Shown: in pieces, positions 62,734-63,543 of the stretch | Layout of the letters: the number at the start of each line of letters is the position of its first letter | Position numbering within the stretch: the stretch's first letter is position 1 | From: Qipengyuania flava | GTDB lineage: Bacteria > Pseudomonadota > Alphaproteobacteria > Sphingomonadales > Sphingomonadaceae | Length of the DNA: 64,000 nt | Assembly: GCF_019448255.1 (NCBI RefSeq) | Contig: NZ_CP080410.1 | Location: 1,798,001-1,862,000 of the forward strand | Direction of reading: 5' to 3' | Position numbers and translations under genes: made by a program | Notes under the pieces: generated by a model | Databases searched by the model: none | What the model saw: only the letters and a program-made list of their open reading frames with translations | What the model was told of the DNA's origin: nothing

Positions 62734-62809
62734 ATCGGATAGCCGATGCGGCTGTCAGGCTGGCTTTGGGGAGGGGGAAAGGGCCCGCCAGCGCATCGGC
62801 TAATCCGAT
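62734..62809. repeat. 17-bp near-perfect inverted repeat in the ydcH-nhaA leader region
   Basis: Arms 62734-62750 and 62792-62809 pair over 17 bp with a single bulged A (62802); the loop is about 41 nt and includes a G/C-rich run. On the minus strand the structure would lie in the leader of the ydcH-nhaA-CaCA transcript, 32 bp before the ydcH-like start. Function inferred. Confidence 0.75.
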
Positions 62810-62905
62810 ACGGTCCGACATCACGCTTGCCAGTTCAGGCAGGCGCCAGAGGGGCCCGGTCCGCATTGACTAAATGCGACAGGATCGATCCGGTTTCAAG
62901 CAATA

Positions 62906-62921: not shown

Positions 62922-63009
62922 ATGCGGTCCCCGAGGGGGCGAGTCGCCGGACCACCGGCCGCCACAAAGCGTGTCACTTTGCAACAGTTTGGGCCCTGTG
63001 TTCGACTCC

Positions 63010-63033
63010 GGAAAATCAGCGTGCTAGATGGTT
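63010..63033 (+). promoter_or_regulatory. Candidate EcfG-type (general stress sigma) promoter
   Basis: GGAAA (63010-63014), 16 bases, then GTT (63031-63033), one mismatch from the alphaproteobacterial EcfG consensus GGAAC-N16/17-GTT. Transcription would begin about 63040, giving a ~145-nt leader for the small secreted-protein gene. The match is weak evidence alone. Confidence 0.42.
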
Positions 63034-63045
63034 AACGCTTCATGA

Positions 63046-63163
63046 TTGCGAAGCCTGGCGGGGAGAGACCAGGCCGCAACTCGGGCGCTCATGAACAGGG
63101 ATGGCTACGGGTAAGACCCGGCCTGCGGTCGCATCGACCCAAACGGTCCTGCCTGACAGGACC
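63046..63163 (+). other. Structured 5' leader of the small secreted-protein gene
   Basis: Three hairpins: TTGCG+GCCTGG / CCAGGC+CGCAA (63046-63079, loop CGGGGAGAGA), CGGG-TAAGA-CCCG (63108-63120) and GGTCCTG-CCTGA-CAGGACC (63145-63163). The first begins about where transcription should start. None has a T-tract, so they look like leader structure, not terminators. Confidence 0.55.
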
Positions 63164-63188
63164 CGATGTTCAGATGGAGAGAGACATC

Positions 63189-63491
63189 ATGAAAAAGCTG
63201 ATTTGTGCCGCGGTTGCGGCAGCCCTGGTGATTCCCGGTGCCGCGATGGCGAGCCACCCGCAAGGCAATGGTCCGGGTGGTCAGGTGAACCAGAACAATC
63301 CGGACGGATTCAAGAACCGCGGCCAGTGCCAGTCAGCGCTGAGCGCCGAAATCAATCGCCAGCGCAAGAATCCGGAAGAGCGCGTTCCCTTCCGCCAGGA
63401 CCAGAAGGCCTCGGACTTCCAGCGCGACATGCTCGATCGTTTCGAGTGCCGCTCCGAAGACGACGGTCCCTATCGCGTCTATCTGCGCTGA
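63189..63491 (+). CDS. Small secreted protein, unknown function
   Basis: 100 aa. Signal peptide about 1-22 (cleavage after AMA-S). Mature part is Asn/Gly/Gln-rich first (HPQGNGPGGQVNQNNPDG), then charged and helical. Two cysteines (about 47 and 86) could form a disulfide. GGAGAGAG precedes the ATG. No family recognised. It has its own terminator and a structured leader, suggesting separate regulation. Confidence 0.72.
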   Translation: MKKLICAAVAAALVIPGAAMASHPQGNGPGGQVNQNNPDGFKNRGQCQSALSAEINRQRKNPEERVPFRQDQKASDFQRDMLDRFECRSEDDGPYRVYLR

Positions 63492-63509: not shown

Positions 63510-63543
63510 AGGCCCGCGCGGAGCGATCCGCGCGGGCCTTTTT
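63510..63543 (+). terminator. Intrinsic terminator
   Basis: A 13-bp perfect stem (63510-63522 with 63527-63539), GCGA loop and TTTTT run follow the secreted-protein stop by 18 bp. Classical Rho-independent terminator. Confidence 0.92.

Follow-up and report, generated by a model that had tools for sequence, protein, structure and literature searches.

The small gene at positions 63189-63491 on the plus strand is preceded by what its sequence, compared with that of one orthologue, identifies as a structured 5′ UTR, conserved between the two; its product is a small exported protein. The best reading is a lineage-specific structured leader that would restrain translation and/or protect the mRNA, possibly under the control of CtrA. 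In kind this is an ordinary element, a structured 5′ UTR with a narrow distribution. The DNA analysed, called the window, is a 64-kb stretch covering bases 1798001-1862000 of a single-contig 2.85 Mb genome. Conservation of the promoter, the leader fold and the coding sequence was computed between two species, that of the window and Qipengyuania mesophila YG27 (G165), which carries the single close orthologue among the 60 genus genomes searched; the gene was not found in the remaining 58 at the sensitivity used.

The open reading frame encodes a 100-aa protein with a signal peptide. Two cysteines, C47 and C87, lie in the mature part and a third, C6, lies inside the signal peptide, so that the secreted two-cysteine product of the preliminary description is borne out. 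The proteins of the window and Q. mesophila share 88% identity. The two genes differ at 7, 7 and 34 sites in the first, second and third codon positions, respectively, with a dN of 0.066 and a dS of 0.78. Since 34 of the 48 differences are at third positions and dN is low relative to dS, the frame is a real gene under purifying selection. Profile searches add five more distant members: G622 with 60% identity, G328, G303 and G310 with 35-39%, and G391 with 31%. The family alignment has 15 invariant columns, including those of Cys47 and Cys87. Further protein hits (G147, G065, G074, G656 and G321) are weak and were rejected as low-complexity or signal-peptide matches. Pfam holds no matching family, no NCBIfam score comes close to a curated cut-off and a PDB sequence search with the protein returns no relative. 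The AlphaFold2 model (mean pLDDT of 80) consists of helices and a two-stranded sheet, and a PDB fold search with it gives nothing at E < 2.8. No paralogues were found in the same genome. The term 'orphan', used earlier for this protein, is too strong, because five distant members with the two invariant cysteines emerge from the profile search; by sequence, the protein belongs with these in a small, patchy and unnamed family. If this is correct, the small exported proteins with two cysteines gain a family that had no name before. Around G622, G328, G303 and G310, the gene order bears no relation to that of the window.

Regarding the promoter, the preliminary description had proposed an EcfG-like, stress-induced element, GGAAA-N16-GTT, at positions 63010-63033 (plus strand). 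The element is present at this position ahead of the leader, and we judge it a chance match. The pattern GGAAN-N15-17-GTT occurs 17 times in the 64-kb window against an expectation of 12.1 ± 3.4, which is chance level. The EcfG motif of Sphingomonas melonis is GGAAC-N17-20-GTT (PMC6599016). The site resembles the EcfG promoters of sphingomonads (PMC6599016) in having GGAA at the −35 distance and GTT downstream, but its fifth base is A instead of C, its spacing of 16 falls below 17-20, and it is not conserved. In Q. mesophila, the only orthologue, TGAAT takes the place of GGAAA in a promoter that is otherwise conserved. The list of EcfG-dependent genes in S. melonis does include a GGAAA site and other degenerate sites (PMC6599016), which speaks for EcfG; on balance, we consider an EcfG-driven stress gene very improbable, and the stress-induced reading is unsupported.

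The conserved elements are different ones. A −35-like TCGACT (TCGACA in Q. mesophila) at 63002-63007 keeps TCGAC in both species and lies 17 nt from the −10 element, and the extended −10 TGCTAGATG at 63022-63030 (TGGTAGATG in Q. mesophila) is conserved in the pairwise alignment, both on the plus strand. Together they give TCGAC(T/A)-N17-TAGATG with a TG one base ahead of the −10, followed by GTTAACGCTTCATG. A block of 20 nt, TAGATGGTTAACGCTTCATG, is identical in the two species; with the dS of the gene as a neutral yardstick, we infer that such a run is unlikely without selection. Its exact sequence was found only in the two orthologues, and matches with three mismatches occur in five other genomes. 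The hexamers are weak matches to the σ70 consensus, and in a generic σ70 scan the site falls below the threshold and no promoter is called. From its sequence, the promoter reads as σ70-type with an extended −10 and a predicted start near 63037. The comparison with Q. mesophila supports the predicted start site and the long leader suggested earlier, with about 150 nt between promoter and ATG.

The invariant 20-nt block also contains a candidate CtrA operator. On the minus strand, positions 63028-63035 read TTAACCAT, which is identical in Q. mesophila and overlaps the −10 as well as the predicted start. This sequence is the published CtrA half-site (PMC3692519), as would be found at a CtrA target promoter, and half-sites overlapping the −10 are the repressor arrangement in Caulobacter (PMC6180460). 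The predicted site resembles the CtrA-repressed promoters of Caulobacter (PMC6180460) in lying across the −10 and start site, a position that the orthologue shares, and differs from them in lacking the full TTAA-N7-TTAA. The CckA–ChpT–CtrA relay is conserved in Sphingomonadales (PMC2877005). The 8-mer, which was noticed after the fact, occurs once in the 64-kb window against 0.14 expected, and 25 times in the genome against 11 for a reversed-pattern control. When ORFs are called crudely, 18 of these 25 copies are intergenic. Among the genes next to copies are those for a CheA-like kinase, a Tad pilus component and an extensin-like protein. Genes of this kind are under CtrA control elsewhere. 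CtrA possibly controls the small-gene promoter as well, a putative new lead that, if true, would probably extend the CtrA-linked targets of Qipengyuania beyond the usual motility genes. The 25 genomic sites (L072-L096, G000:C1) can serve directly as candidate CtrA targets in this genome.

The predicted architecture of the leader is the same in the window and in Q. mesophila: a terminal helix P0, hairpin 1, and a long-range helix P1 around hairpins 2, 3 and 4, all on the plus strand. The 5′ end of the leader at 63037-63046, one arm of the TTCATGAT/ATCATGAA inverted repeat, forms the 5′ strand of P0, and the start codon with the first codons (63186-63198) forms its 3′ strand. In the minimum-energy folds of both species, the partner of GCUUCAUG at the 5′ end is CAUGAAAAAGC, which contains the start codon; the start codon is paired with a probability near 1 at 37 °C. 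Hairpin 1 occupies 63048-63077. Its loop was pointed out in the preliminary description; it is present as CGGGGAGAGA in the window but not conserved, and reads CGGCACGA in Q. mesophila. P1 spans 63092-63172, where TGAACA at 63092-63097 pairs with TGTTCA at 63167-63172 in invariant pairs. It encloses hairpin 2 (63103-63123), hairpin 3 (GGTCG-CAT-CGACC, 63127-63139), which is identical in the two species and predicted in both folds, and hairpin 4 (GGTCCTG-CCTGA-CAGGACC, 63145-63163). The Shine–Dalgarno region GGAGAGAGA follows at 63176-63184 and is invariant in the alignment. The earlier outline of a leader of roughly this length with several hairpins is retained, but there are four local hairpins and not three, with P1 and P0 in addition.

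The pattern of substitutions agrees with this fold. In a hand structural alignment of 47 consensus pairs, 37 are unchanged, three are changed on one side, seven on both sides and none is broken. The double-sided changes support hairpins 1 (three pairs), 2 (one pair) and 4 (three pairs), the compensatory changes of a structured RNA leader, here seen between two sequences. The covariation check proposed earlier comes out in favour of these hairpins, in a single comparison, since the searched genomes contain just two such leaders. P0 and P1, the helices of greatest weight for the mechanism, are invariant, so that they are conserved but receive no support from covariation. The consensus energy of the hand alignment is −52.2 compared with −28.2 ± 4.2 for shuffles. 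Since this alignment leans towards structure, the shuffle test was repeated on a plain, unbiased MAFFT alignment, in which alifold gives −45.6 compared with −28.7 ± 4.2 kcal/mol for column shuffles (0/300 as good, z = −4.0). In the same test, two coding-region controls give z values of −0.4 and 0.1. The complementary strand of the leader scores z = −2.9, as expected from helices that are nearly symmetric, and the strand is accordingly assigned by the gene and the promoter and not by the alifold test alone. Taken singly, the Q. mesophila leader is unusually stable (z = −2.70), but the leader in the window is not (z = −1.18, with 23 of 200 shuffles as good).

The reach of this leader is short. 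Rfam cis-regulatory families likewise comprise structured leaders upstream of genes, but no family in Rfam 15 matches this one on the plus strand at E values up to 5, and a known riboswitch is thereby rejected. Across 299 family genomes, a covariance model recovered nothing but the query, in a search whose strict filters can lose weak matches and whose draw evidently left out Q. mesophila. On a set of sequences that included the distant family members and its own two source leaders, the model scores strongly only on these two; the next match (L056, E = 0.39) is not significant, and no significant match falls at the distant members. The leaders of the distant members are unrelated to that of the window, and those that were folded, at L047 and L039-L041, have other predicted hairpins. 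The leader is thus lineage-specific, and it is not essential to the protein family, whose distant members carry unrelated ones. The leader is a matter of specialist interest, and its very narrow distribution limits the wider meaning; if the reading holds, a small, testable structured leader is added in Qipengyuania.

As to mechanism, the explanation that we prefer, at about even probability, is a single-gene transcript with a σ70-type promoter, a putative CtrA operator and a conserved leader that brakes translation and/or shields the mRNA. Transcription would begin near 63037 from the extended −10 promoter and run to the terminator at 63543, giving an mRNA of about 510 nt. The CtrA half-site over the −10 and start site is the probable operator and would act most simply by repression. 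The first 150 nt or so would then fold into hairpin 1 and, after it, P1 with hairpins 2-4 inside, while the extreme 5′ end pairs with the region of the start codon. The most likely effects of such a fold are less frequent translation initiation and a protected 5′ end, and protein output would then depend on refolding of the leader or on a trans-acting factor. In the minimum free energy model, 6.6 kcal/mol is needed to open the ribosome site in the window and 4.2 kcal/mol in Q. mesophila, and on these modelled values the leader may be a moderate brake on initiation. Of the post-transcriptional control proposed earlier, plausibility is what can be kept, given a predicted fold that pairs the start codon in both species. 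Long structured 5′ UTRs are familiar on envelope-protein mRNAs, for example, in the E. coli ompA leader. The present leader resembles that type in its length of more than 100 nt, the hairpin near the 5′ end and the exported product; it differs in having no sequence or family relation and in that its 5′ end is predicted to base-pair with the start codon.

The main rival is a passive mRNA-stabilizing 5′ UTR, in which the hairpins and the closed fold hinder RNase E entry without any regulated switching. Stabilizing 5′ UTRs occur on many abundant envelope-protein mRNAs, and the stable hairpin near the 5′ end, the short single-gene mRNA, the exported product, the lack of a known riboswitch family and a modelled structure that is insensitive to temperature are all in keeping with one. 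A simple stabilizer would, however, require neither a start codon that itself lies within the predicted fold of both species nor the conservation of the exact 5′ block, hairpin 3, the CCTGA loop and the ribosome site, and we hold this rival to be possible but rather doubtful. The same insensitivity to temperature leaves an RNA thermometer unsupported, since the start codon stays paired at all modelled temperatures from 20 to 55 °C in both species. A switch responsive to a ligand, a protein or an sRNA goes further and would let the 5′ TTCATG pair either with the middle TCATGAA, which opens the start codon and breaks P1, or with the start codon in the closed state. The sequence TCATGA does occur three times (63040, 63089 and 63187) with mutually exclusive pairings, and Q. 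mesophila retains the TTCATG/CATGAA cores. However, the alternative fold is less stable by 3.9 kcal/mol in the window and by 10.8 kcal/mol in Q. mesophila, self-complementary TCATGA repeats pair easily by chance, two sequences allow no conserved ligand pocket to be recognized, and the leader has no match elsewhere. Because of the less stable alternative fold and the self-complementarity, a true switch is only a possibility, and an unlikely one.

Unlikely as well is a new lineage-restricted class of cis-regulatory RNA, in which the 5′ end closes the start codon and the internal TCATGA copy opens it, behind a CtrA-controlled promoter; if true, such a class would gate a small exported protein at both transcription and translation. 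The idea that the leader is itself coding, with the gene starting at 63042 and specifying a 149-aa protein, is scarcely credible. In the window, no stop codon interrupts the frame from 63042 onwards, but in Q. mesophila a stop closes it 11 codons ahead of the ATG (111 aa from stop to stop), the alignment contains frame-breaking gaps, and the signal peptide begins at 63189, behind the ribosome site. An independent small RNA was also rejected, as hairpin 4 is followed by no U-run and there is accordingly no terminator ahead of the ATG.

Downstream of the small gene, the opposite strand carries a large convergent ORF that resembles a TonB-dependent receptor gene. Between the two lies an intrinsic terminator at 63511-63543 (plus strand), recognized from its sequence as a stem GGCCCGCGCGG...CCGCGCGGGCC followed by T5. 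This stem, GGCCCGCGCGG/CCGCGCGGGCC with TTTTT, is strong and common to both convergent genes, and the stem and T-run are largely kept in Q. mesophila; there, too, the receptor gene comes next, and two more genes share the order of the window. Upstream, a Na+/Ca2+ exchanger, nhaA and a 57-aa ORF lie on the minus strand, with a GGDEF gene farther off; this GGDEF gene is the immediate upstream neighbour of the small gene in Q. mesophila. The segment 60256-62867 (minus strand), which carries the Na+/Ca2+ exchanger, nhaA and a terC RNA, is missing from the corresponding place in Q. mesophila. The terC RNA (RF03067) at 62806-62867 on the minus strand is complete (56.9 bits against a gathering threshold of 39.9, E = 4.5e-9) and, at about 135 bp upstream of the small-gene promoter, is the nearest regulatory RNA. 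Downstream of it are the 57-aa ORF, nhaA and the Na+/Ca2+ exchanger, with no terC gene among them, and a cation- or pH-linked role of the terC RNA would fit these non-terC genes.
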